Origin: Candidatus Saccharimonadota bacterium
GTDB lineage: Bacteria > Patescibacteriota > Saccharimonadia > Saccharimonadales > Saccharimonadaceae
DNA length: 64,000 bases
Reading direction: 5' to 3'
Assembly: GCA_017613135.1 (NCBI GenBank)
Contig: JAGAEN010000007.1
Span: 1 to 64,000, forward strand
This document shows positions 17,393 to 50,058 of this stretch, one piece after another; positions within the stretch are counted from its first letter, which is position 1; each line of letters opens with the position of its first letter. The notes under the pieces are model-generated. The model saw only the letters and a list, made by a program, of their open reading frames with translations. It was not told where the DNA came from and made no database searches. A program made the translations under genes and the position numbers.

Positions 17393-19084
17393 ATGAGTAA
17401 AAATAAATCAATCGATGGGCTTACGGTTCGCGATGCCAAAAATCCGACACCAGAGATAAAAAAGCCCGCTAAACCAACCCCGAAACCTACCAAGGCTAAA
17501 CTTTCTGCTACTAAAAACCCTGTTAAAAACATTAACATCCCTAACTCTGAACCAACTGAACCAGTTGAGGTCACAGTTGTTCACGAAAAAACACAGATTG
17601 TCGAGGACTTTCTAAAACCCGTCCAAGCTTTCAATTTTGATGGCGAAGAACTTACCCCTTCTAAAGAACCTACCAAAAAATCTAAAAAGGACAAAAAATC
17701 TAAAAAAGAAAAACCAGAAAAGAAAAAGCCAGGTAAAGTCCGCCGCATTATTTCTATTATTGTTCTCGTCATTGTTCTTGCCCTTATTGGCCTTGTTACC
17801 TGGGCCGTCCTTTGGGGCAACGATATCATCGCCAAAATCACCGGCGGCCAAGGTAACGTCTTCGATCTCATCAAGTTTATCGAGCCCACTTACGACCCAT
17901 TAAAGACTGACTCTAATGGTCGCACTAATATTCTTGCCTTTGGTACTAGCGGTTACAATATGGCTGGCGATGAAGGACGTGGCGTTCACGCTGGCGCCCA
18001 GCTCACCGACTCTATTATGATGATTAGTTTGAACCAAGAAACCGGCGACATTGCTATGCTTTCCCTCCCTCGTGACCTTAAGGCCTCCACTACTTGTACT
18101 GCCACTGGCAAAATCAATGAGCTCTACTGGTGTCGTGGTGGCGGAGCAGATGTTTCTGCCGAACAGGAAGCCGCAGCTGCTGGCGCCTTAATGGCCGAAG
18201 TTGGTGATATCCTTGGTGTAGATTTTCAATACTTTGCCCACCTAAACTGGGGCTCGCTCATCTCCATTGTCGATATTTTAGGTGGCATCACCGTTACTCT
18301 TGATGAGGGTATCTACGATTATTACTGGACTGGCGCCGTTTATGAGCCGGGCGTTGCGTACACTTTAAACGGCGAGCAAGCCCTTGGATTATCCCGTGCT
18401 CGTCACGGTACTTCTGGCGGCGACTTCTCCCGCGGTTCTTCTCAACAAAAAATTCTTATTGGTATTAAAAACAAAATAATCGAAAAGGAACTTTCTATCA
18501 CCGATATCATCGGCCTTGCTTCTGCCCTTGGTGATAATTTCCGCAGTAATTTTTCTATTGATGAATTAAAATCCGCTGCCCATCTCACTTTTGACTTTGA
18601 CTTTGACAGTATGCGTCAAATATCTCTCTGGCCAGACTATATGCGAACTGGCACTCTCGAAAATGGTATTTCTTATGTCTTCCCTCGCGCCGGTACTTAT
18701 AGCTATGGCAATATTCAAGCCTATGTTGCCGAAAACCTTAACAACGATCCTCGCACTTATGAACATCCTGCCATCGCTATCTTTAATGCTACCGGTGAAG
18801 CAGGCCTAGCCAGTACCGAAAAAACCAAACTCGAAGCCGAAGGCTACACCATCAACGCTATCGACAACGCCCCAGAAGACACTAAATTCGAAGACAAAAT
18901 CACCTTTTATAGCAATCACGCTAAGCCTGGCACCGAAGATATGCTCCAAAAGTATTACGAACTATATCAAGACCAAATTAAATCCCTCTCCGACGCCCCC
19001 GCTTCACTCCCCCGCGACTACGACTTCATCATCGTCCTCGGCCCCTCTCCCGCTGAAGAAGAAGAGCCGACAGTTGATGAGTAA
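17393..19084 (+). CDS. LytR-CpsA-Psr (LCP) family glycan ligase
   Basis: A 563-residue protein with a long lysine/proline-rich cytoplasmic N-terminus (about 120 residues), one membrane helix (about 121-142), and an LCP catalytic domain. LCP motifs include LTDSIMMISLNQETGDIAMLSLPRDL, the acidic/arginine ALGLSRARHGTSGGDFSRGSSQQKIL, and a C-terminal LytR_C-like domain (AIFNATGEAGLAS onward). LCP enzymes transfer polyprenyl-linked polymers onto peptidoglycan. This is the expected last step for the glycans made and exported by the 4-14 kb genes. The mRNA should be nearly leaderless. Confidence 0.9.
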   Translation: MSKNKSIDGLTVRDAKNPTPEIKKPAKPTPKPTKAKLSATKNPVKNINIPNSEPTEPVEVTVVHEKTQIVEDFLKPVQAFNFDGEELTPSKEPTKKSKKDKKSKKEKPEKKKPGKVRRIISIIVLVIVLALIGLVTWAVLWGNDIIAKITGGQGNVFDLIKFIEPTYDPLKTDSNGRTNILAFGTSGYNMAGDEGRGVHAGAQLTDSIMMISLNQETGDIAMLSLPRDLKASTTCTATGKINELYWCRGGGADVSAEQEAAAAGALMAEVGDILGVDFQYFAHLNWGSLISIVDILGGITVTLDEGIYDYYWTGAVYEPGVAYTLNGEQALGLSRARHGTSGGDFSRGSSQQKILIGIKNKIIEKELSITDIIGLASALGDNFRSNFSIDELKSAAHLTFDFDFDSMRQISLWPDYMRTGTLENGISYVFPRAGTYSYGNIQAYVAENLNNDPRTYEHPAIAIFNATGEAGLASTEKTKLEAEGYTINAIDNAPEDTKFEDKITFYSNHAKPGTEDMLQKYYELYQDQIKSLSDAPASLPRDYDFIIVLGPSPAEEEEPTVDE

Positions 19085-19085
19085 A

Positions 19086-19231
19086 ATATAGTAAATATTT
19101 GCGCATTGAACGAGCCCAATTAAAAATAACAATTTCACAGGACGAGCACGGAACTGTAATTCCGGCGCGGTCCTGCCTGAAATTGTTATTTTTGATCTGG
19201 CGCGAGTAAAGCGTGCAAATATTTACTATAT
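19086..19231. repeat. 146-bp interrupted palindrome between convergent genes
   Basis: Four nested perfect stems are visible: 19086-19102 with 19215-19231 (17 bp), 19122-19137 with 19178-19193 (16 bp), 19138-19143 with 19170-19175 (6 bp, CC bulge) and 19149-19153 with 19160-19164 (5 bp, loop of 6). It fills the gap between the LCP gene and khpB. The outer arm contains the khpB stop codon. It may end transcription in both directions, or be a palindromic element related to those in valS and tsaD. Confidence 0.85.
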
Positions 19232-19681
19232 CTTACTAATAATTAGTTTCCGGTCTCTACCCTCTCCCTCAGAGTGAGTATCAATATCCGAATAATCTTG
19301 CGCCAATTTATGTACTACACGTCGGTCCGCTGCATTAAGATTAATCTCCATCGGCTGACCCGTTTCTCGCACTTTTCTAATCCACCCTTCCGCCTTTTCT
19401 GCAATTCTGTCTGCACGCTGCCTCTTATAGCTCGCTACATCTACATTTACTCTCACTACTTCTGCTCCTCTCGAAACCAGAGCCATTGACACAATATGCT
19501 GAAGCGCCCGCAAATTATCTGCATTCCGCCCGATTAGAAGCGAATTTAATGACGTTGATGGAACTGATAATTGTATTACCTCATCGTCAATTGTCGACGA
19601 CACCGCTACATTAATTCCAAAGAAACTAAGTAGGTCTTCTAGGTACTTTGCAGCAAACCTAATTGATTCATCTTTATCCAT
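19226..19681 (-). CDS. khpB: KH/R3H RNA-binding protein KhpB (Jag)
   Basis: A 151-residue protein. It has a KH domain with LLIGRNADNLRALQHI (about residues 48-63) and an R3H domain with LNAADRRVVHKLAQDYSDIDTHSEGEG (about residues 113-140). Short Jag proteins lacking the N-terminal Jag-N domain are common. KhpB binds RNA and is linked to cell-wall growth and division control. It follows yidC by 3 nt with AAGGAG as Shine-Dalgarno, in the standard rpmH-rnpA-yidC-jag origin order. Its stop codon is inside the 146-bp palindrome. Confidence 0.93.
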   Translation of the reverse strand: MDKDESIRFAAKYLEDLLSFFGINVAVSSTIDDEVIQLSVPSTSLNSLLIGRNADNLRALQHIVSMALVSRGAEVVRVNVDVASYKRQRADRIAEKAEGWIRKVRETGQPMEINLNAADRRVVHKLAQDYSDIDTHSEGEGRDRKLIISKI

Positions 19682-37893: not shown

Positions 37894-38239
37894 AATCCCC
37901 TGCTACAAAATCTACGAAGACGATAAAACCCTCGCCTTTCTCGATATTAATCCCGAGACCAAAGGCCACACCCTCGTTATCCCGAAAACTGAAGTCGACA
38001 AAATTTATGACCTCTCCCCCGAAGATTATGATGCTCTGATGCACACCGTGAAAAAACTCTCCAAACACCTAGAAAAAATTCTACAAAAACGCATCCTTTG
38101 GAAAGTTGTTGGCACCGACGTTCCTCACGCCCACGTCCACTTAATGCCACTAGATGACACTTGGTATCACGGCCGCCATCTTGAATTATCAAAAGACGAA
38201 TTTGAACAAATCCGTAAGCAACTTGAATATTCGGCCTAA
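37859..38239 (+). CDS. HIT-family nucleotide-binding protein
   Basis: A 126-residue protein with IFTKIINGEIPCYKIYEDD, FLDINPETKGHTLVIPK and the histidine triad HAHVHLMP near the C-terminus. HIT proteins hydrolyse dinucleotide or phosphoramidate substrates. The ATG at 37859 follows a TAGGAGC Shine-Dalgarno inside the PAP2 gene, giving an unusually long 35-bp overlap. Confidence 0.93.
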   Translation: MASIFTKIINGEIPCYKIYEDDKTLAFLDINPETKGHTLVIPKTEVDKIYDLSPEDYDALMHTVKKLSKHLEKILQKRILWKVVGTDVPHAHVHLMPLDDTWYHGRHLELSKDEFEQIRKQLEYSA

Positions 38240-38293
38240 AAACAGATTTAACCCCAGCACTAAATTTTTGTCCATCTATGGTATAATCAAATT

Positions 38294-41140
38294 ATGAAAT
38301 TTTCAAGTAGTTACGAACCCAATCAATTTGAACCAGATATTTATGCCGCATGGGAAGCCGCCGGCGTCTTCAATCCTACCGTCTCTACCGTCCCCGTCGA
38401 CGCCGACGGAAACGGCCACGACGACCGGTTGGAATCTGAAGAGAATGCTTTTTCGGAGCATGTTTGGCGACGGGCCAAACACGGAGCAAGCGAGCCCCGT
38501 AACGACGGGAGCGAGCTTGCGTTCCGAAAAAGCATTTCTTCAGATTCCACCTACTCTATCGTCATGCCACCCCCGAACGCCAACGGCAATCTCCATATCG
38601 GTCACGGCCTTACTGTTGCTCTTGAAGATTCTCTTACACGCTACTACAGATTAAAAGGCAAATCCACCTGGTACATCCCTGGCGCCGACCACGCTGGTTT
38701 TGAAACCTGGGTCGTTTATGAACGCGCCCTTGAGGCCAGCGGCCACACCCGTTTTGAATATGATCGCAACGAGCTCTACGCCCGTGTTTGGGATTTTGTA
38801 GCCCAGCAACGCGGCAATATGGAAGTCCAACTCCGCGCCCTTGGCGCCTCCTGCGCCTGGAACGACCTTACCTTCACTCTGGATGAAAACGTCGTTGACC
38901 GTGTCTACACTACTTTTGAAAAAATGTGGAACGACGGCCTGATTTACAGAGGCAAAAAACTTGTCAATTATTGCCCTAAGCACCAGACCGCTTTCGCCGA
39001 CATCGAAGTCGAACACCAAGATGAGCCCGGTACCCTTTGGGACATTGCTTATGATGATATCATAGTTTCTACTACTAGACCCGAAACCTTGTTCGGCGAT
39101 GTGGCCGTTGCCGTCAATCCAAATGACAACCGCTACCAAGACCGCATCGGCAAAAAAGTCCACTTGCCTCTCACTGATCGCGAAATCGAAATCATCGCCG
39201 ATGAACACGCCGACCCTGAGTATGGCACCGGCGCTGTTAAGATTACGCCCGCTCACGATTTTGACGATTTCGAAGTTGGTGAACGCCACCATCTCCCCCA
39301 GATTCAGGTTATTTCTGAAGAAGGCCGAATGATTAACGTGCCAGATAAATACTACGGTCTTACCACCGCCGAATGTCGCAAGCAAGTCCTAAAAGACCTA
39401 AAGGAACAAGGCCTCTTAAAGGGTGAAAAGAAAATCACCCACTCTGTAGCGCACTGTTACAAATGTGGCACCGTTATCGAGCCAATGTTAAAAGAGCAGT
39501 GGTTTATTGATGTCAAAACTCTGGCAAAAACCGCCATCGAGCATTTAAACAATAATGAAATCAAATTCTATCCCGAGAGCAAGCAAAAAGTCCTCATCAA
39601 CTATCTTGAAAACTTAAAAGACTGGAACATCTCCCGCCAAATCCCTTGGGGCATCGCCATCCCGATGTTTAAGAAAATTGACGACGAAGCCACCGACGAA
39701 CCAGAATGGATTTTTGACAAAAGAACCAATTTGAAAGAAATTGAAAAATCCGGCGTGAAATATATCAGAGACGAAGACACTTTTGACACCTGGTTCTCTT
39801 CCAGCCATTGGCCTATTGTTTGTACCGACTGGTCAGATGAGAATCCCACCCCTTATTACCCATTAAATGTCATGGAAACTGGCGTTGATCTAATTTTTGC
39901 CTGGGTCTCCCGGATGATTATGATGGGACTCTATGTTACCGGCGAAGTGCCATTTAAAGAAGTTTATTTCCACGGCCTCGTCCTTGATGAACATGGCAAA
40001 AAAATGAGTAAAAGCAAAGGTAATGTGATTAATCCAATGGAATTAGTGGTAAAATATGGCTCCGACGCCTTCCGCCTCGGCATTCTCCGCGGTCGCTCCG
40101 CCGGCATGAACCAAGCCTTCTCTGAAAACTCCGTCATCTCCGGCCGAAATCTAGCCAACAAACTCTGGAACATCTCCCGTCTTGTCCAATCCATGGTCGA
40201 CGAAGATGGAGAGGCTGACGCGAGCTTTCATTTTGCAAGCCCGAGCGAAAATCGAGAAGTCGAGTCGAGCCGAGTACCGGAAAGTACCGGGCGCAGGCCC
40301 GATTCGACGACGAGATTTTTGCCCGGCGCGCAGCAAAGCGCAAGCGAGCGCAGCCTCTCCATTTACACCACCGACAACATGGGCGAAGACTGGATTTGCC
40401 GCGAAATAAACGACTGTCTCGACCAAGTCGAGAACGACATGAAAACCTATCGTTTCGCCGAAGCCGTCGAAGTACTCTATACTACCATTTGGGATAAATA
40501 CGCCGACTGGTTCCTCGAATCCCAAAAACTGTACAAGAATGTCCCACTTCTAAAAACCACCCTCGAATCTCTTCTCATCGCCATTCATCCTTTCGCCCCA
40601 TTTGTTACTGAAGCTATCTGGCAAAATCTATCCTGGACCAAAGGCTTTATTATTACGGCAAAATGGCCAGAAAGACTAGAATACGACCCAATAAGCGCCG
40701 AGAATTTCGAAAACATAAGAATTATCGTGTCTGAGATAAGAAGCACCTTGCAGAGCCTCCCAGGCGCCAATAACAGCAAAAAATATGGTCTAATGTATGA
40801 TAACGACGCCCTAGTGGAGGATAATTCCCTCCTTATTAAGACGCTTGCCAAAGTTCCGACCATTAATCCCCTAAATGGCTCCCCGAGAGGCCTAAGAATC
40901 GCCCTTGCGAGCCACGAACTCTATCTTGACGTCCCCGAAAAAGTCATCAAGGATTACAAAGACGCACTCACTGAAAAAATCCTCTCTGTCGGCCGTGAGC
41001 TAGATGCCCTTAACCTTCGCATGAGTAATCCAAACTATGTCGAACGCGCCCCAGAGCATCTAGTCAAAGAAACCAGGAATCAAATTAAAGAAAAAGAATC
41101 ACTCATCTCCCGCCTAAAAAACCAACTCACCCTAACCTAG
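38294..41140 (+). CDS. valS: Valyl-tRNA synthetase with two in-frame palindromic insertions
   Basis: A 948-residue class I synthetase. The HIGH motif is in PPPNANGNLHIGHGL and the KMSKS motif is GKKMSKSKGNVINP. Also present are the CP1 editing domain (TTRPETLFGD, THDFNDF-like PAHDFDDFEVG), the anticodon-binding domain and a short C-terminal coiled coil (EHLVKETRNQIKEKESLISRL). Two low-complexity inserts encode charged, proline/serine-rich peptides: residues about 46-85, just before the HIGH domain, and about 638-690, at the catalytic/anticodon-domain boundary. Both inserts are DNA palindromes. The start is leaderless (TGG TATAAT, 6-nt gap). Confidence 0.97.
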   Translation: MKFSSSYEPNQFEPDIYAAWEAAGVFNPTVSTVPVDADGNGHDDRLESEENAFSEHVWRRAKHGASEPRNDGSELAFRKSISSDSTYSIVMPPPNANGNLHIGHGLTVALEDSLTRYYRLKGKSTWYIPGADHAGFETWVVYERALEASGHTRFEYDRNELYARVWDFVAQQRGNMEVQLRALGASCAWNDLTFTLDENVVDRVYTTFEKMWNDGLIYRGKKLVNYCPKHQTAFADIEVEHQDEPGTLWDIAYDDIIVSTTRPETLFGDVAVAVNPNDNRYQDRIGKKVHLPLTDREIEIIADEHADPEYGTGAVKITPAHDFDDFEVGERHHLPQIQVISEEGRMINVPDKYYGLTTAECRKQVLKDLKEQGLLKGEKKITHSVAHCYKCGTVIEPMLKEQWFIDVKTLAKTAIEHLNNNEIKFYPESKQKVLINYLENLKDWNISRQIPWGIAIPMFKKIDDEATDEPEWIFDKRTNLKEIEKSGVKYIRDEDTFDTWFSSSHWPIVCTDWSDENPTPYYPLNVMETGVDLIFAWVSRMIMMGLYVTGEVPFKEVYFHGLVLDEHGKKMSKSKGNVINPMELVVKYGSDAFRLGILRGRSAGMNQAFSENSVISGRNLANKLWNISRLVQSMVDEDGEADASFHFASPSENREVESSRVPESTGRRPDSTTRFLPGAQQSASERSLSIYTTDNMGEDWICREINDCLDQVENDMKTYRFAEAVEVLYTTIWDKYADWFLESQKLYKNVPLLKTTLESLLIAIHPFAPFVTEAIWQNLSWTKGFIITAKWPERLEYDPISAENFENIRIIVSEIRSTLQSLPGANNSKKYGLMYDNDALVEDNSLLIKTLAKVPTINPLNGSPRGLRIALASHELYLDVPEKVIKDYKDALTEKILSVGRELDALNLRMSNPNYVERAPEHLVKETRNQIKEKESLISRLKNQLTLT
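38431..38548. repeat. Palindromic element, copy in valS (72-bp core plus arms)
   Basis: The core is 38455-38526. Left arm 38431-38457 and right arm 38522-38548 are inverted copies over about 26 bp with one bulged base. Inside, hairpin 1 is GTTTGG/CCAAAC and hairpin 2 is GCAAGC-GA-GC-CCCGT/ACGGG-A-GC-GA-GCTTGC. It is read in forward frame 2 of the core, giving EHVWRRAKHG. Confidence 0.95.
40206..40362. repeat. 157-bp nested palindrome inside valS
   Basis: ATGGAGAGGCTG (40206-40217) is perfectly inverted as CAGCCTCTCCAT (40351-40362). Inside, CGC-GA-GC-TT (40219-40227) faces AA-GC-GA-GCG (40342-40350) with tandem GA steps. TTTGC pairs with GCAAA, and GAAAATC (40247-40253) pairs with GATTTTT (40314-40320). 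It is in frame and encodes about 52 residues absent from the conserved core of ValS. It does not share the 72-bp core. Confidence 0.85.
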
Positions 41141-41233
41141 AAAAGTCTTTTTACTGAAGGCAAAAACACTTCGGTCAATTGAGCAGTAAAGCAAAAAAAT
41201 AATACAGGCAAAAATCAGCACCAGAAAAGGCTT

Positions 41234-41521
41234 CTATTTCTTCTTGTGATTGATGAAATACATTGCGGTAAAAAATATGCTACAAGCGATTGCAAGACAA
41301 GGCCACGCAATCATATCGAGCACATCTACAAATACTTTCCACTCATCACCAACCAAAACTTTACTTGAAATAAGAATATCAAATATCCACCAACCAAGTA
41401 AACAAACAACTGAAATCAACCATGCAATAACTGCAATCTTCCCCGGAGGAGTTGAAAGAAAAACTCTCTCATCCTTATCGAAGGATACAGCAAGCTTCTT
41501 ATTATTTTTTTTATTCTTCAT
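41234..41521 (-). CDS. Small two-helix membrane protein
   Basis: A 95-residue protein. It has a lysine/asparagine-rich N-terminus, then two helices (IAVIAWLISVVCLLGWWIFDIL and MIAWPCLAIACSIFFTAMYFI). A leader of about 35 nt with AAAGGAAC lies between a TACTATAAT-type -10 and the ATG. Family not recognised. Confidence 0.6.
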   Translation of the reverse strand: MKNKKNNKKLAVSFDKDERVFLSTPPGKIAVIAWLISVVCLLGWWIFDILISSKVLVGDEWKVFVDVLDMIAWPCLAIACSIFFTAMYFINHKKK

Positions 41522-41600
41522 TTTGTTCCTTTCGTTGTTATTAGCATAATAACTTTAATTTCATTATAGTATAATAATAAAAAATAAACTAAGAATTAAA

Positions 41601-41629
41601 TTGACTTTTTAACCTATTTGTGCTATAAT
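41601..41629 (+). promoter_or_regulatory. -35/-10 promoter
   Basis: TTGACT (41601-41606) and TATAAT (41624-41629, preceded by TGC) with a 17-bp spacer. A leader of about 49 nt with AAAGGAG precedes the 41685 ATG. Confidence 0.75.
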
Positions 41630-41684
41630 AAAATCATATTCTGTACCTTAAAATTCAGAAAATTACAGTGAAAGGAGCCTGAAT

Positions 41685-42461
41685 ATGCCTAAGACTGCCC
41701 AATGTTCCCCCAAAAATTCTGCTCTGCTTCACGATCTAATCCCTGTTTATGCAGAAAAGCACTCAACTTTTCAACAAATCAGAGACTACCTCGCTGGGCA
41801 AAATCTGACCGATAACAGAATCTCTATCGACCAAGACAACGGACTCGTTTCCCTCACCCGTAGTCTCTATCTTCTGGCGTGCTTTACCAGGGGAGAACAC
41901 GAAGATTACGAGGAGGTGGCTAGCTGTCAAGACAACAATTATGACCATCTGACCTTTGAGACATTCAAGCGTCTCTGTGGTTATTTTGAACTCTTCGAAG
42001 TGAAACCAGAGCTCTACAACCTGATGGAGCTCTATCTCATCATCGTTCAGCTCAGTAGCACCGAAATCGTGAACCAGTACATCCCTCTCATTCCTAAGGA
42101 TAAACTGAACTATGGCAAGTTTGGGATGGCCTATTCCCTTGTGGACAATGAACTCATCCCAGAGTTGAGCAAACTGAACCTAGCTGAGTTTGACATCTTG
42201 AGGAGTGCTCTAAAGTATGCGGCGAGAGCTGAAGAGATTTTTGCCACCGGCAAAAAAATCACCTTCAACAAGGAATTCAGCGATAGCGAACAACGCATCG
42301 TCTACACCAGCATCGTCTGCGATTTGGCCGCCTTCATTGGCCCAATCGAAGTTAGCGGCAGCCTGACTCTTACCGAGTCGCTTGCCTCTGATCTTCTGCT
42401 GATGCTCTATCACCACAACGATCCTACGTATATCGGCTATCTGTGTAGTCTCAGCCAGTAA
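41685..42461 (+). CDS. Soluble protein of unknown function
   Basis: A 258-residue, mainly helical, acidic protein with no membrane segment or motif I recognise. Its codon use (frequent CTG, GAG, AAG, CTC) differs from the AT-ending codons of neighbours, which could mean transfer or a different expression class. It is a single-gene unit with its own -35/-10 promoter, Shine-Dalgarno leader and terminator. Confidence 0.6.
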   Translation: MPKTAQCSPKNSALLHDLIPVYAEKHSTFQQIRDYLAGQNLTDNRISIDQDNGLVSLTRSLYLLACFTRGEHEDYEEVASCQDNNYDHLTFETFKRLCGYFELFEVKPELYNLMELYLIIVQLSSTEIVNQYIPLIPKDKLNYGKFGMAYSLVDNELIPELSKLNLAEFDILRSALKYAARAEEIFATGKKITFNKEFSDSEQRIVYTSIVCDLAAFIGPIEVSGSLTLTESLASDLLLMLYHHNDPTYIGYLCSLSQ

Positions 42462-42470
42462 CTGTAATTT

Positions 42471-42497
42471 AAAAGCCCCGTCTACCGGGGCTTTTTC
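42471..42497. terminator. Rho-independent terminator
   Basis: AAAAGCCCCG-TCTAC-CGGGGCTTTTT, directly after the 41685-42461 gene. It can also serve the convergent 42502 gene. Confidence 0.88.
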
Positions 42498-42501
42498 CAT
42501 C

Positions 42502-42711
42502 TCAAATCTTCTTATTAAACCTGTCCAGATTAAATAGCGGGTTCTTCCCATCATCCATCACTGCTTGTGCTTTTTTCAACAATTTTTCCACACCTTTTTC
42601 TGAAGTAGCTGACCCGATATGCACTGTCCGCACCACCTTGTTCCCTTCCTTAAAGCACACCTGTACACCGGTTGCCCCCGAAGTCGTCTTAAATTTCCTA
42701 ATATAAGCCAT
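42502..42711 (-). CDS. Short protein resembling the N-terminus of IS1634-type transposases
   Basis: 69 residues from the start chosen here: MAYIRKFKTTSGATGVQVC, then VVRTVHIGSATSEKGVEKLL. This matches the way IS1634/IS4-group transposases begin (MAYIRKxKTxSGAxxVQV...HIGSA). The catalytic DDE part is absent and no terminal inverted repeats were found. It is either a transposase remnant or a co-opted domain. An intact leaderless promoter (TGG TATAAT, 6-nt gap) argues that it is still expressed. The longer frame from 42735 is rejected because it would start inside the -10 region. Confidence 0.55.
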   Translation of the reverse strand: MAYIRKFKTTSGATGVQVCFKEGNKVVRTVHIGSATSEKGVEKLLKKAQAVMDDGKNPLFNLDRFNKKI

Positions 42712-42800
42712 AACAGAATTATACCACTTATGCACAGCATAATAAAAGAAAAATCCCTAATTCCCTTATGTTTAGCACGCGCGTCGCCTAGCAACCGCAC

Positions 42801-42829
42801 TTGACAAACAAAAACGCTAGCGCTAAAAT
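42801..42829 (+). promoter_or_regulatory. Orphan -35/-10 promoter before a gene-free stretch
   Basis: TTGACA (42801-42806) and TAAAAT (42824-42829) are 17 bp apart. Downstream to about 42990 there is no credible frame, only a CAGGC-AAAAAA-GCCTG hairpin and short stems. A small RNA is possible. No known RNA family was recognised. Confidence 0.4.
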
Positions 42830-43008
42830 CAAATTAACCCCGCAGGCAAAAAAGCCTGTCGATTGGGAGAACCACAGTTCAAGTTTTCTATACCGACTTA
42901 AGACAAAAAAGCCGAGTATTTTGCTAACGCTTTATAATAAAAGAGAAAAATAGTCAATATAAAGCACATGTTTAACGGGGAATTACAAAAAAGTGTTATA
43001 ATGAAAAT

Positions 43009-43977
43009 ATGAAAATTCCGATTACTCAGTCCAAAGAATGGCAAACCCTCCAAAACGACCTAAAAGAAACCAGTTTTTTTGAAAAAAATGAAATTTATCA
43101 ATACCTAGCCATTTTAAAGAAAACCCCAGTAGGGAACTACCTTTTTCTGCCCTATGGTCCCGTTGCAGATACCAGAGAGGCGATACAGCAAGCCATAAGA
43201 TCTATTACAGAATTAGCAAAAAAACACAACTGTATTTTTATCCGAATTGAGCCCCAATTAGATGATTGTGCGAAATATCTCGACAAAATTGCCAAAAAAG
43301 TCAAAGATATCAGCCCAATAGATACCTGGATTCTTGATCTTACCCCAGATGAAGCCACTTTAATCAGTAATTTTACCCAGGGCACTCGTACCTGTTACCA
43401 CAATGTACCAAAAAGAGGCCTCGCAGTTGAAACTACTAAAGATCAAGATGGCATTAAGCATCTCATTTCTCTTCAAAATCAGATTTTCAAGAAAAAACAT
43501 CTTACTGGCTATGACGAAAACTATCTTAAAACCGAATTAGCCCAGCCTTTTGCCACTCTCTATCTCGTTAAATATCATCACCCAGACACCAACCCAACAA
43601 ACCCAGAAGAACAAACCACTGAACCCATCCCAGAAGACGGCCAAGTAATCGCCGCCAGCCTCTTTTTCGACCACGATGACACGCGCTACTATATGCAGTC
43701 CGCTTCCGACCAGCGTTACCGCAAACTACCAGCCACCGTTGCACTGCTCACCTCCGCCATCTTAGATGCCAAAAGAAAAGGAATTAAACAATTCGATTTC
43801 TGGGGTATCGCACCAGAGGGCGCCGACCAGACTCACCCCTGGTATGGTTTTACTAAATTCAAAAAATCTTTTGGTGGCTCCCCAAAGCATTACGCCGGCA
43901 CCTATGACATTATCTTAAAACCACTAAAATATCGTCTTTTTGAAAAATCTAAACAGCTCAAAAAATTCCTTCACTAA
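43009..43977 (+). CDS. FemAB-type aminoacyltransferase (peptidoglycan bridge)
   Basis: A 322-residue GNAT-fold protein of the FemX/FemAB type. It has ITQSKEWQTLQ at the N-terminus, IRIEPQ, the central TRTCYHNVPKRGLAVE and the C-terminal FDFWGIAPEGADQTHPWYGFTKFKKSFGG with YAGTYD. The family uses aminoacyl-tRNA to add residues to the stem-peptide side chain of lipid II. This is consistent with branched peptidoglycan and with the non-DNPR MurE. Leaderless start (TGT TATAAT, 6-nt gap). Confidence 0.9.
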   Translation: MKIPITQSKEWQTLQNDLKETSFFEKNEIYQYLAILKKTPVGNYLFLPYGPVADTREAIQQAIRSITELAKKHNCIFIRIEPQLDDCAKYLDKIAKKVKDISPIDTWILDLTPDEATLISNFTQGTRTCYHNVPKRGLAVETTKDQDGIKHLISLQNQIFKKKHLTGYDENYLKTELAQPFATLYLVKYHHPDTNPTNPEEQTTEPIPEDGQVIAASLFFDHDDTRYYMQSASDQRYRKLPATVALLTSAILDAKRKGIKQFDFWGIAPEGADQTHPWYGFTKFKKSFGGSPKHYAGTYDIILKPLKYRLFEKSKQLKKFLH

Positions 43978-44001
43978 TCAATTTTATGCTACAATAAAAG
44001 C

Positions 44002-44946
44002 ATGAACATGGAGGAACTAGAACGAGTGCGCGAAAAATACGCCAAAAAACTGTTGATTTTCATCAGCATAGGTTTTGGTATCTTTGCGTTAGCGATAATA
44101 ATTGGTATGCTTGCCTTTACCAATATTAATTCAAAGTTACTTTCAATGGTTACGCCGATGGCGATAACTGGTTTTTTTATGGTTGTCGCTATAATGATAG
44201 CAGCCTATCTATTAACTAGAAAAGAAGCTGCCGCTTACCGCAAGATTTACAAAGCCTACTTTGTCGAACGAAACCTCCGCCAGAGCTTCACCGACATCTA
44301 CTACAACCACGAGCAGGGAATGCCAAAAGAGGTTTTAAAATCCACGGATATGATGCGGACAGGGGACGTTTATCGCTCTAACGATTTCACCTCTGGCAAA
44401 TACAAAGACGTCGCCTTTTCCCAGGCCGACGTCGAAATTCAAGAAGAGCACACCGATTCTGATGGCGATACCACCTACGTCACCATTTTCAAAGGTCGCT
44501 GGATGGTTTTTGAATTTCCCAAATCCTTCAATTTTCGCCTTGAAGTCGTCCAAAAATGGTTCAACGCCCACAAAAAACCCAGCAAAGACAAAACCTTAAA
44601 TCGCAAAATCGAAAAAATCTCCACCGAATCGCCTACCTTCAATAAAAAATTCAACGTCTACGCCGAAGATGGTTTTGAGGCCTACTACATTCTCGACCCC
44701 GCCTTTATTGACCATATTGAGAAGTTAAGTGAAGCCTACAAAGGCAAGCTTCTTCTCTGTTTTGTCGATAACAGGCTCCACGTCGGCCTGAATGACAAAA
44801 AAGACGCCTTCGAACCACCTCACCCATTTAAGCCCATTGACGAAAAAACCGAAAATCAAAAAGTCCATGCCGACATCAAGACCATCACTGATTTCGTCGA
44901 CTTTCTAAAACTCGACCGCAAATTATTCAAGGACACCGCCAAATGA
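44002..44946 (+). CDS. DUF3137-family membrane protein
   Basis: A 314-residue protein with two N-terminal helices (about residues 15-70) and a cytoplasmic domain with SNDFTSGKYKDVAFSQADVEIQEE, TIFKGRWMVFEF and LLLCFVDNRLHVGLN, the DUF3137 pattern. Function unknown. The first ATG is preferred because TGC TACAAT ends exactly 6 nt upstream; a second ATG lies two codons later. It overlaps the P-type ATPase start by 4 nt, so the two may cooperate. Confidence 0.8.
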   Translation: MNMEELERVREKYAKKLLIFISIGFGIFALAIIIGMLAFTNINSKLLSMVTPMAITGFFMVVAIMIAAYLLTRKEAAAYRKIYKAYFVERNLRQSFTDIYYNHEQGMPKEVLKSTDMMRTGDVYRSNDFTSGKYKDVAFSQADVEIQEEHTDSDGDTTYVTIFKGRWMVFEFPKSFNFRLEVVQKWFNAHKKPSKDKTLNRKIEKISTESPTFNKKFNVYAEDGFEAYYILDPAFIDHIEKLSEAYKGKLLLCFVDNRLHVGLNDKKDAFEPPHPFKPIDEKTENQKVHADIKTITDFVDFLKLDRKLFKDTAK

Positions 44947-47312
44947 ATCATTCCATCTGGAAAATTATTGCCAAGAATACTTTTACGCTATTTAATTTCG
45001 TCAACCTCGTCCTCGCTCTAATGGTGGCATTTGTCGGCAGTTACAAAAATATGCTATTTATCACCATCGCCATTGCGAACACCTTAATCAGTATCGTAAA
45101 TGAAATTCGCGCCAAAAAAATTGTCGATAAACTCCGTCTCCTCTCCGAGCAGCGTCCCACGGTGATTAGAAACGGTAAATCCTACCAAGTCGCCCCCGAA
45201 GACATCAAAAAAGGTGATATCACCGTATTAAGCCTCGGCGACCAGATAATGTATGACAGTGTCATACAGTCTGGCACCATCGAAGTCAATGAAGCCTTCA
45301 TCACCGGCGAGCAAGACAACATTGTCAAAAAAGCAGGCGATAAACTCACCTCTGGCAGTTTCGTAGTCTCCGGCACCGCTGAGGCAGCAGTCGAGCACAT
45401 CGGCGCCGATAATTTTGTCACCAAATTGCAAAATGAAGCCACCACGATAAAGACTGCCGATAGCAAACTCTTCAAATTGATGAATAACATCGTTAAATAC
45501 ATCAGTTATTCTCTTATTCCTATTGGTGCACTTCTCCTCTGGGCCAGATTTCGCACCGAGCCAAATGTTACCGACGCCATCACTAGCACCGTCGCTGCTC
45601 TCATTAATATGATTCCAGAGGGCCTCATTCTCTTGACCAGCACCGTACTCGCTCTCGCTACCATCCGACTTGGCCGGCGGAAAGTTCTCGTCCAGGACCT
45701 CTATTCTATCGAAACTCTCGCCCGCGTCGACACCATCTGTCTCGATAAGACCGGTACCCTCACCACTGGTAATATGACCGTCCATGACGCTTTGCTGCCA
45801 GACGGCACGCCAATAAATATCAAAGCCCCCACCACCTCAGCCGAAAAATCGCTTCTAAGGGCCTTAAAAGCCATTCTAAGCCATCAAACCGCTAAAAACC
45901 AAACCACTAGCGCTTTAGAAAAAAAGTTCCTCCAAGGCGCCAAAAATGCAGCCACAGACGAAATTAAAAAAATTGTCGACATCATCCCATTTAGCTCCGA
46001 CCGCAAGTATTCCGGCATCGTCACAAATAACGCCACCTACCTAATGGGCGCCATCGAATTCCTTACCAACGACAAAGCGCTTATCGATAAGGTCAAATCC
46101 TTCTCCACCGATTACCGCACCTTAGCAATCGTAGAGCACGAAAACAACTATCATTTGAGGAGCATATTTGGCGACGGGCCAAATACGGAGCAAGCGAGCC
46201 CCGTGACGACGGGCGCGAGCTTGCGTTCCGAAAATGATGGTTGTTTTCGTGTTACCAAGCTTCTAGGTATCGTCCGTCTCGAAGACGAACTTCGCCCTAC
46301 AGCAGGGAAGATCATCAAGTATTTTTATGATAACGACATCAATGTGAAGATTATTTCCGGTGATGACCTTGAAACCGTCACCAAAATCTCCGAGAATGTA
46401 GGCGTAAATGACTTAAGAGGTATTGATCTCTCTACGATTAGTCGCAAGAATTATACCAAGCTAGTAGAAGATTACAGCATTTTAACTCGTGTCACACCCG
46501 CCGAGAAAAAAGAGTTAATCAAAGCTTTTAAAAAGCAAGGTAAAACCGTCGCTATGACCGGCGATGGTGTCAACGACATTTTGGCGATGAAAGAGGCCGA
46601 CGTCTCACTTGCCATCGGTGAAGGCAGCGATGCTGCCCGTCGCGCCTCAAAACTCGTTCTTTTAAACTCCGACTTCGATGCCGTCCCAAGCATTATTGAC
46701 GAAGGTCGCCAATCTATCAACAACCTCGAACGCTCCACCGCCCTATTTCTTGCCAAGACCGTCTACGCCAGCATTCTCGCCGTCATTTTCGTCATTCTCC
46801 CCTTAAGCTACCCCTTTAGCCCTATCGAAATGTCTCTTCTAAACTTCGCCTGCATTGGCTTCCCTGGCCTAGTTCTTTCTCTAGAGAAAAACACCGACCG
46901 CATTAAAAATCGCTTCACGCGGAACATCATCGAATATTCCTTCCCAATCGGCATCACTGTCTCTATCTGTATGGCTGTCCTTTCTGCTCTTGCCCATATC
47001 AACGAATTCACCCGCCCAGAGCTCACCACCGCTTCGGTTTTTATTACCTTTACCATTGATCTAATTCTCATCTATTGGATTTCTAGGCCGCTAAACAAAC
47101 TCCGTGCCGGCCTTTTACTCACTATCATTGGCATCATGGCTGCCGCTTTCGGTATCCCCCTTATCCGCGACTTCTTCGAATTCACTTTCCTAACCAGTAA
47201 CGGTCTCATCATTATGCTCGCCATCATCGGCGCCGGCTTCCTCTTCTTTAATCTTCTTCGTCTACTCCTCAAGCGCTCACTAAACCACATCTTCACCCGC
47301 TTGCATTTCTAA
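44943..47312 (+). CDS. P-type cation ATPase (CtpE-like) with palindromic insertion
   Basis: A 789-residue pump. It has the phosphorylation motif DKTGTLTTGN, actuator motif TGEQ in FITGEQD, hinge MTGDGVNDILAMKEADVSLAIG and the membrane motif NMIPEGL in helix 4. PEGL-type pumps include mycobacterial CtpE, associated with calcium, so calcium is a reasonable but unproven substrate. Residues about 399-437, in the nucleotide-binding domain just before LLGIVRLEDELRP, are the palindromic insert reading RSIFGDGPNTEQ. The gene is coupled to the DUF3137 gene by ATGA. Confidence 0.93.
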   Translation: MNHSIWKIIAKNTFTLFNFVNLVLALMVAFVGSYKNMLFITIAIANTLISIVNEIRAKKIVDKLRLLSEQRPTVIRNGKSYQVAPEDIKKGDITVLSLGDQIMYDSVIQSGTIEVNEAFITGEQDNIVKKAGDKLTSGSFVVSGTAEAAVEHIGADNFVTKLQNEATTIKTADSKLFKLMNNIVKYISYSLIPIGALLLWARFRTEPNVTDAITSTVAALINMIPEGLILLTSTVLALATIRLGRRKVLVQDLYSIETLARVDTICLDKTGTLTTGNMTVHDALLPDGTPINIKAPTTSAEKSLLRALKAILSHQTAKNQTTSALEKKFLQGAKNAATDEIKKIVDIIPFSSDRKYSGIVTNNATYLMGAIEFLTNDKALIDKVKSFSTDYRTLAIVEHENNYHLRSIFGDGPNTEQASPVTTGASLRSENDGCFRVTKLLGIVRLEDELRPTAGKIIKYFYDNDINVKIISGDDLETVTKISENVGVNDLRGIDLSTISRKNYTKLVEDYSILTRVTPAEKKELIKAFKKQGKTVAMTGDGVNDILAMKEADVSLAIGEGSDAARRASKLVLLNSDFDAVPSIIDEGRQSINNLERSTALFLAKTVYASILAVIFVILPLSYPFSPIEMSLLNFACIGFPGLVLSLEKNTDRIKNRFTRNIIEYSFPIGITVSICMAVLSALAHINEFTRPELTTASVFITFTIDLILIYWISRPLNKLRAGLLLTIIGIMAAAFGIPLIRDFFEFTFLTSNGLIIMLAIIGAGFLFFNLLRLLLKRSLNHIFTRLHF
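46137..46251. repeat. Palindromic element, copy in the P-type ATPase
   Basis: The core is 46159-46230, with 68 of 72 bases identical to the valS copy. Two of the four changes form one base pair (G8-C26 to A8-T26). The arms 46137-46156 and 46232-46251 are inverted copies over 20 bp with one mismatch, made of host coding sequence. It is read in forward frame 3 of the core. Confidence 0.95.
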
Positions 47313-47386
47313 ATTTACAATTATTTTATTGCCGTAATGTTTGTGATAATATTAATACATAAGCATTAAAAAAAAGGAGAATCATC

Positions 47387-48346
47387 ATGGAACAAAATAT
47401 AAATACTGCTATGCCAGCCACGAGCAGTAGTCAACAAGGAAGTGGCAACGGGCTTAAAATTGCTACCGCCATCGCTTCAATTGTGGCTATTTGCGGCATC
47501 GGTTTTGGCGTATACGGCATGATACAAAGCACTCAAAAAGATAATCAAATCTCTGACCTCAGAGTTCAAATTAAGAATAGTGATGGTACTATTACGACCA
47601 TTGACACTCCAAAAATTGAAACTACCACTTCAGATGGTTCGGTTATCACTATTAGTGACATGCCAGAATCCGTTGACCAAGACTCCGAAGTAAAACAAAT
47701 TGTCAGAACGGTGTATGAGGCGTTATCAACAAATATAAAAGGTGCAGACATTCAAACCGACTTCGGCGTTGGCTCAATGATTAAAATCCCAGGCACTAAT
47801 ATTTATACGATAGCCAATAGGTCGTATGGTGTCAATTTAAACATGGATATAGAGGAAAGAGATTTTAATGCAATTTTGGATAATGCCTCTACCTATGCAA
47901 AATCCGCTCTAAACAGCAACGGGTTTGTCGAAGAAAAAGAAATCATGTTCGGAAAACTGCTTTATAATTCCAGCAACGGAATAAGCTGTTTGGTAGGTGA
48001 AGCCAACATACCATTTCGAGTGAGCTGCAGCAAAAATACCTGGATAACAGATGAACAGAAAGAATTTGTTTTGGCTCTCGCTAAAGCCGCTGGAACTGAT
48101 TACGTCTCCGCCGACCCTAGTCGTATTGCTGATAGCCAGGTTTCCCCACACCAAAAACTAACGGCGTTCGGTGAGAATTATGCAATGCTCTTTTACCGCA
48201 CCTCCCCAAGTTCAGAATGGCAATTTTTCAAGGGAACTCAAGACCTAATAGGATGCAATAAATACACAGGAGACGCAGCCAAAGCCTTTGCTGGCGATAC
48301 TTGTTGGGATGAAGCTACACGACAAAGCTCCACAGTACAACCATAA
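47387..48346 (+). CDS. Membrane-anchored extracytoplasmic protein of unknown function
   Basis: A 319-residue protein. A short Ser/Gln-rich N-terminus is followed by one membrane helix (about residues 26-43), a short coiled-coil-like stretch and an external domain. Three or four cysteines are clustered at ISCLVGEAN, RVSCSKN, IGCNKY and DTCWDE, suggesting disulfides. I recognise no domain. It is leadered (AAAGGAG Shine-Dalgarno) and ends at a strong terminator, so it is a single-gene unit. Confidence 0.65.
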   Translation: MEQNINTAMPATSSSQQGSGNGLKIATAIASIVAICGIGFGVYGMIQSTQKDNQISDLRVQIKNSDGTITTIDTPKIETTTSDGSVITISDMPESVDQDSEVKQIVRTVYEALSTNIKGADIQTDFGVGSMIKIPGTNIYTIANRSYGVNLNMDIEERDFNAILDNASTYAKSALNSNGFVEEKEIMFGKLLYNSSNGISCLVGEANIPFRVSCSKNTWITDEQKEFVLALAKAAGTDYVSADPSRIADSQVSPHQKLTAFGENYAMLFYRTSPSSEWQFFKGTQDLIGCNKYTGDAAKAFAGDTCWDEATRQSSTVQP

Positions 48347-48367
48347 CCAAGCAGTAGTAAGATTCCT

Positions 48368-48391
48368 AAACTCTCCCGAAAGGGAGAGTTT
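48368..48391. terminator. Bidirectional terminator
   Basis: AAACTCTCCC-GAAA-GGGAGAGTTT: a perfect 10-bp stem with a GNRA-type tetraloop, between the convergent 47387 gene and tsaD. Confidence 0.88.
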
Positions 48392-48418
48392 ATTTATAAA
48401 AAGCAAAAAGAATAGAAG

Positions 48419-49597
48419 CTATTTATCAATCGCTATCCTAGGATAAATATTGAGGGTGTATGGATTCGTCGGTTTCACTCCACTCAAAATCTCAAAAAAG
48501 CATGCTGCTGCCACCATCGCCCCATTATCGCCAGATAGCGAAGGGACAGGGAAGAAGGCGTCTGGTAGCGCCTTACGAAGCGACTGATTAGCGCTTACTC
48601 CCCCAGCCACTGCTACAGATTTTACCTTAGGATACATATCAAGCGCAAAATTTATTTTCTCAGTCAGGATCTCCACAGCGGTCTTCTGGAATGATGCCGC
48701 AAAATCATGCACTTGTTGCTCGCTAAGTAGCCCCGCCAGTTTATGTGAAGGATACGAAATAGGCACTCCAACCTCCTTCTGCACCGCCCGGAGCACAGCG
48801 GTCTTCAACCCAGAAAATGAAAAATCAAGCCCTTCGACCTTAGGGTGTGGCAAACGATATTTGTCAGGATTACCCCCCTTTGCAGCCTTCGCAATCGATG
48901 GCCCACCTGGATAGGGAAGCCCTAGGATCTTCGCCACCTTATCAAAACACTCCCCCACCGCATCGTCATGTGTCGTCCCTACAATCTCAAACTGATTATG
49001 CCCCCTCATATACAAAATCTGCGTATGTCCTCCCGACACGACCAATGCCAACAAAGGGAAAGCTGGTATCTGACTTTTCTGAAGCATAGAAAACTGATTA
49101 TTCTGTTTGGAATCTAATGGACGCTTCTCTGAGGAGCATGTTTGGCGACGGGCCAAACACGGAGCGACCGAAGCCCGTGACGACGGGCCTGAGGGAGCGT
49201 TCCGAAGAGAAGTGTCCTTAGATTCAAAAGAGTTTAGCCAATTCGCATACACATGTGACTTCAAATGATGCACGGCATAGAGAGGCTTATCATGTAGTAT
49301 CGCAAGCGTCCTTGCGGTCAAAGTCCCAATCAGTAAGGATCCCAGAAGGCCCGGCGCGTGTGTCACCGCTATTGCGTCAATTTCATCCCAAGACACCGAA
49401 GCATCCGACAGCGCCTTATTCACCACCGGCATCATCGCCTCAAGGTGTGACCTTGCCGCCACCTCTGGTATCACCCCACCATATTCCGCAAAAATATCAA
49501 TCTGCGAGACCACCACGCTCGACAAAATCTCCCGCCCGTCTCTTACCACTGCGGCCGCCGTCTCGTCACAACTTGTCTCAATTCCCAGTATTAACAT
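48419..49597 (-). CDS. tsaD: tRNA N6-adenosine threonylcarbamoyltransferase TsaD with palindromic insertion
   Basis: A 392-residue protein; family members are usually near 340. It has LGIETSCDETAAAVV, the metal-binding AVHHLKSHVYANW (His110/His111 and His115), LVVSGGHTQI, and the C-terminal VAGGVSANQSLR and SGDNGAMVAAA. TsaD completes t6A37 synthesis on tRNAs reading ANN codons. The extra length is mostly residues about 125-163, a palindromic insert lying between the metal-site helix and the SGGHTQ strand, probably a surface loop. Leaderless start (TGA TATAAT, 6-nt gap). Confidence 0.96.
   Translation of the reverse strand: MLILGIETSCDETAAAVVRDGREILSSVVVSQIDIFAEYGGVIPEVAARSHLEAMMPVVNKALSDASVSWDEIDAIAVTHAPGLLGSLLIGTLTARTLAILHDKPLYAVHHLKSHVYANWLNSFESKDTSLRNAPSGPSSRASVAPCLARRQTCSSEKRPLDSKQNNQFSMLQKSQIPAFPLLALVVSGGHTQILYMRGHNQFEIVGTTHDDAVGECFDKVAKILGLPYPGGPSIAKAAKGGNPDKYRLPHPKVEGLDFSFSGLKTAVLRAVQKEVGVPISYPSHKLAGLLSEQQVHDFAASFQKTAVEILTEKINFALDMYPKVKSVAVAGGVSANQSLRKALPDAFFPVPSLSGDNGAMVAAACFFEILSGVKPTNPYTLNIYPRIAIDK
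49110..49225. repeat. Palindromic element, copy in tsaD
   Basis: The core is 49133-49204. Relative to valS, hairpin 2 is rewritten with paired changes (G36-C62 to C-G, G40-C58 to A-T, C41-G57 to G-C). A second tandem-GA step replaces two A-T pairs. Arms 49110-49130 and 49206-49225 are inverted copies with one bulge and one mismatch. The element lies antisense to the gene, so it is read in the reverse frame. Confidence 0.95.
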
Positions 49598-49623
49598 ATC
49601 TTAATTATATCACCCCACGCATA

Positions 49624-50058
49624 TTATGCGTGATGATATTTTCCTCCGTGATAGATTTCTTGCGCTCGGTAAATCTGCTCTGTCACCATCACTCGTGCCA
49701 AAGCGTGTGGGAAAACCAACTTCGAAAAACTCCATACAAAATCCGCCTTTTCTCGTACAAAATCATCAAGCCCATACGCCCCACCAATCAAAATCACTAC
49801 ATCGCGCCCACCCACAAACGCCCTCTCCAACACTGAAGAATATTCACCCGATGATATATTCTCCCCTCGCTCATCACAGCAAATCACATACTCCCGCCCC
49901 CGTTCAAACGGCCACTCTGAAAGCCGCTTTAAAAGTTTCTCCTCCTCCACAAATTCCCATACCACATTAAAAGGCTTCCTAAGCCTTTTTTCATACTCAA
50001 AGCACGCTTCCGCCGCCCATCCAGCGTTATTCTTTCCCCCGGCAATAATCTTAATCAT
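49624..50058 (-). CDS. rlmH: 23S rRNA pseudouridine-1915 N3-methyltransferase RlmH
   Basis: A 144-residue SPOUT methyltransferase. It has CCDERGENISSGEYS, LIGGAYGLDDFVREKAD and the family end SFSKLVFPHALARVMVTEQIYRAQEIYHGGKYHH. It acts on the 70S ribosome at helix 69. TGA TATAAT ends 6 nt before the ATG. Its stop codon lies in a CACGCAT/ATGCGTG hairpin that abuts the tsaD promoter. Confidence 0.96.
   Translation of the reverse strand: MIKIIAGGKNNAGWAAEACFEYEKRLRKPFNVVWEFVEEEKLLKRLSEWPFERGREYVICCDERGENISSGEYSSVLERAFVGGRDVVILIGGAYGLDDFVREKADFVWSFSKLVFPHALARVMVTEQIYRAQEIYHGGKYHHA

Follow-up and report, generated by a model that had tools for sequence, protein, structure and literature searches.

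Coding palindromes carried in the genes of Saccharibacteria consist of two parts with different histories: a core that is homogenised between the loci of one genome, and flanking arms that are peculiar to a locus, are inherited with it and are kept complementary by paired changes. Three copies lie in the window, by which we mean the whole 64,000-nt stretch of DNA analysed here, and they interrupt valS, a P-type ATPase gene and tsaD.

Architecture of the element

The three sites have in common one 72-nt core with two inner hairpins, and around each core runs a stem of 20-25 bp whose sequence is site-specific and whose pairing is perfect or near-perfect. With two arms of ~21 nt, the unit comes to ~114 nt. 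The parts in the window are:

38430..38454, + strand: left arm, valS
38455..38526, + strand: core in valS, 72 nt
38527..38549, + strand: right arm, valS
46137..46158, + strand: left arm at the ATPase site, locus-specific
46159..46230, + strand: core in the P-type ATPase gene, 72 nt, with two inner hairpins and GGAGC/GTTCC closing
46231..46251, + strand: right arm at the ATPase site, complementary to 46137-46158
49109..49132, + strand: arm in tsaD, on the 3' side of the gene
49133..49204, + strand: core in tsaD, 72 nt (gene on the - strand)
49205..49225, + strand: arm in tsaD, on the 5' side of the gene

Folding z scores were -7.3, -9.3 and -8.4 at the ATPase, valS and tsaD sites, with no dinucleotide shuffle folding as low, and an Rfam scan of 38000-50000 returned only 4 sub-threshold, chance-level matches and no described structured RNA family. 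In some cores the second inner hairpin encloses another hairpin, flanked by GACGGAAC/GTTCCGTC; examples are L020 (G000:C13:6299), L208 and L210 (obg). Between two genes elsewhere in the window (19077-19240) lies a palindrome with 26-nt arms (92% complementary) around a second pair with 36-nt arms.

Host loops and reading frame

All three insertions are located in hypervariable loops, which in other species are empty or occupied by other hairpin families. At the valS site, for instance, 4-8 residues separate DDR and YSIV in element-free relatives. The reading frame stays open in valS, tsaD, the ATPase and obg despite the insert, and the core consensus can itself be read through in five of its six frames. 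The preliminary description had asked whether the insert is a multiple of three and equals the core plus one arm. Among 142 comparisons of filled with empty loops, 132 gave a net length divisible by three; given this and the open core frames, the insert peptides are very likely translated. The median of 105 nt agrees with core plus one arm, but a core with two short arms fits about equally well. At two sites (L189/L306 and L215/L181) loop length, judged by eye, equals that of the empty loop exactly if the left arm is taken as native.

Several hairpin families besides the core family occupy loops in Saccharibacteria. At L172, L162 and L168 (the ATPase and a neighbouring gene), the same protein loop holds different hairpin families in pairs of species whose flanks are 94-95% identical, which we read as fast turnover of hairpin families within one loop. 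valS has a second variable insertion (SENREVESSRVPESTGRRPDSTTRFLPGAQQSASERSLS) at residues ~640-690 (window ~40210-40360), and the first loop of valS in G035 (L092) has a similar peptide; a second mobile family thus seems to use valS too. Stems with little or no core are found at the same loop positions in tsaD of G018 (L085) and valS of G054 (L101), and these may be scars left by deletion or hairpins without a core.

Core and arms have separate histories

The arms had been described as self-complementary and different at each of the three sites, and mapping them at the ATPase, valS and tsaD bears this out. The property is general: across 73 clean copies of the core, the median arm-to-arm score was 14, against 2 when arms were swapped between copies. 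Complementarity is maintained as sequences change. In pairwise counts, which are not independent, 177 stem positions had changed on both sides and still paired, as against 148 single changes that broke a pair. The window's tsaD arm at 49109..49132, for example, recurs in G036 (L060), where changes on the one arm are matched by changes on the other, and at the orthologous ATPase sites of G055, G063 and G121 the stem is kept with a different left-arm sequence.

Arm sequence follows the locus and not the core. Non-orthologous copies have an arm identity of.40-.45, irrespective of whether their cores agree at 70% or at >95%; at orthologous sites, the pairs of which are not independent of one another, it is.65-.8 (.68). 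The tsaD core of the window (49133-49204) matches another core of its own genome, at G000:C7:85319-85399, at 72 of 72 nt and the arms are unrelated, with the proviso that the genomes are mostly metagenome assemblies, in which collapsed 72-nt repeats could mimic or inflate core identity. Assembly collapse, though, usually breaks contigs rather than joining distinct arms. Identical cores with unrelated arms in one genome were also found at three loci of G068 and between the ATPase and another gene in G003, and identity between same-genome copies breaks close to the core edge. The reverse arrangement occurs at a single site in G054 and G121 (L213/L197), where the arms are.93 identical and the cores.78, the G054 core (L213) being.96 identical to one at another locus of G054. 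More broadly, of 56 cases 16.4 had their nearest non-orthologous core in the same genome, where 4.3 were expected, with the arms of same-genome copies barely above background identity.

Where the arms come from

The preliminary description takes the left arm for normal codons of the host gene and the right arm for their inverted copy, so that insertion either inverts its own target or needs a pre-existing hairpin. This origin of the arms was not confirmed: similarity to element-free relatives ends at about ±22 on both sides, and arm positions -13 to -22 match those relatives at.28, the random level, on both sides, when empty loops match one another at.40. On average, then, neither arm is recognisable as host sequence. 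Stem pairing that runs on past -22, where there is homology to empty relatives, nevertheless exceeds chance (p<=.0005) and speaks for some host templating.

Two further lines of evidence go against host sequence as the rule. Aligning 55 copies on the core gave a weak, graded arm consensus: close to the core it reads about CTCTTTCGA, from -12 to -17 it is rich in A/G, and beyond about -24 it is absent. In addition, one subfamily has near-identical 20-nt arms at unrelated loci. The obg gene of G151, compared with the empty gene of G055, shows a clean recent insertion: the flanks are 95% identical, the whole unit is present, and a second copy, at a distance of 900 bp, has similar arms. No target duplication is visible in this empty-site comparison, which is one clean event. 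Loops diverge fast, and empty sites are exact only in the 95% pair. In a 95% identical pair (A1 36602), the empty sequence has a match to neither arm. Both arms together occur in no clean empty site displayed; their joint presence there had been named as a way in which target inversion might fail.

Part of the target-inversion claim nevertheless stands. In tsaD the upstream arm repeats the species' own FPLL codons exactly, in inverted form, over 18 nt in G013, 11 nt in G046 and 11 nt in G051, and these codons, because they are conserved, are the original of the inverted copy. No direct duplication was seen, as the claim would have it. In valS of G007, inverted host codons surround the RFE codons. 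As a general rule the claim is not supported, on the arm values of.28 against.40 and the donor-like arms of the obg insertion, a verdict that applies on average and is not specific to the arms in the window. Moreover, a site can keep its arms through an exchange of core, so the arms need not derive from the insertion of the present core. Testing own-species against other-species host codons over the three genes gave no significant difference (p=.27), with only the three tsaD cases standing out; host templating of arms is therefore a minority process. A polarity rule that puts the native arm 5' of the core in every case suited four loops but failed in aggregate, and the readings of the arms as purely host or purely carried were each contradicted by part of the data.

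How the element may spread and keep its stem

We lean, with modest confidence, towards a family of coding palindromic repeats whose core spreads by gene conversion and whose arms are carried in and then repaired and extended by template switching. Under this model, the arms would have arrived with the original insertion and later diverged, and ordinary gene conversion, confined to the 72-80 nt that the copies share, would carry the core from one locus to another. Conversion would end where homology ends, at the boundary of core and arm. Template switching is documented as both maker and keeper of hairpins (PMC8794818), and fold-back (quasi-palindrome) switching in replication could repair arm complementarity and now and then lengthen the stem into adjoining host codons. 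As the stem would be extended in this way, inverted copies of host codons would mostly reflect later stem growth and not insertion. The model has its difficulties: the median insert of 105 is slightly below 114, the by-eye loop lengths of L189/L306 and L215/L181 fit a native left arm exactly, and, same-genome arms being barely above background, it needs much arm divergence with full compensation.

A mechanism along the lines of the preliminary description, in which priming from the host strand copies the core into a target and the new strand folds back on the core ends and copies the host flank, so that each insertion adds the core and one inverted host arm, would account for arms that are unrelated between loci even where cores are identical, for a net insertion near core plus one arm, for the exact loop lengths just mentioned and for the inverted host codons in tsaD (G013, G046, G051) and around the RFE codons in valS of G007. 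We nonetheless find it doubtful, since neither arm resembles element-free relatives, even in the 95% identical pair (A1 36602), where neither is found in the empty sequence; since a weak arm consensus exists and one subfamily repeats its 20-nt arms with little change at loci that are unrelated; and since the obg insertion brought its own arms and arms outlast the core at a site. That persistence of arms through changes of core would be expected if cores insert into, or swap within, pre-existing hairpins and hop between loops, the long stems being docking sites, and the different element families in one loop of species 94-95% identical and the core-poor stems at the tsaD and valS sites (such as G018 L085) point the same way. 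We regard such docking as decidedly unlikely, however: not one clean empty site displayed contains both arms, core-poor stems can be products of deletion, and gene conversion accounts for core exchange with no special mechanism. It is also unlikely, to our mind, that stems in coding loops are standing docking sites serving an element-specific, stem-guided cassette exchange of cores, with fold-back writing in host codons. Finally, a plain MITE-like palindrome, moved by a transposase, with fixed ends and decaying arms, would explain the insertion of a whole unit in obg and the existence of many copies and several families, but it is very improbable in view of arms that covary rather than decay, identical cores that do not share arms, and the lack of a Y1 transposase in 8 genus genomes; at the obg site, a single clean event, no target duplication is visible.

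Copies, taxonomic spread and known systems

The source genome of the window (728.7 kb in 19 contigs) holds at least 12 full-length or near-full copies, and 40 of the 60 genomes (species) searched in the genus have at least one match. In the GTDB collection, 114 stretches match the second hairpin of the core, and all but 2 are in records titled Candidatus Saccharibacteria, mostly metagenome assemblies from ruminant gut. Two core-pattern matches outside, L300 (WHTR01000002.1, titled Chloroflexi) and L342 (JAISDN010000004.1, titled Nomurabacteria), may reflect contamination or transfer. A pattern scan of IMG/VR gave no match, and in the literature searched on Saccharibacteria and CPR we found no description of such elements.

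The nearest known kind is the Rickettsia palindromic element (RPE); the likeness we claim is one of kind, not of descent. RPEs and the coding palindromes of Wolbachia are 105-146 bp long, have open frames and lie in frame in conserved protein genes (PMC2229807); the Saccharibacteria unit, of ~114 nt, is likewise dispersed, palindromic and in frame in conserved protein genes. Unlike RPEs, which are reported to lose repeat identity over time (PMC6649704), the elements described here belong to a different phylum and have decoupled cores and arms, with cores homogenised within a genome and arms that covary. Coding palindromes in the mitochondria of Nematomorpha are inverted repeats in coding genes whose arms stay complementary, for which template switching or repeat conversion has been proposed (PMC6649704), but they have no shared mobile core, reach repeats of up to 284 bp and belong to an animal organelle. 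The arms also recall quasi-palindrome correction, in which one arm serves as template for the other, so that arms stay perfect and are lengthened (PMC8794818); that is a mutational process and not an element, and in Saccharibacteria it would act around a dispersed core. Short dispersed palindromes are also found among REP/BIME elements, which have RAYT transposases, but REPs are mainly extragenic. None of eight genus genomes matched Y1_Tnp (PF01797, RAYT type), with control genomes positive, so a REP/RAYT system is unsupported.

Coding palindromes are known from Rickettsia and Wolbachia, and their spread and the persistence of their stems call for explanation. Saccharibacteria offer a genus with 174 sequenced species and dozens of copies, in which the histories of core and stem are clearly separable, and these copies make gene conversion and template switching testable against each other. 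The copies sit in frame in essential genes of tiny genomes, and they represent a route for a short mobile sequence to rewrite the surface loops of housekeeping proteins repeatedly.
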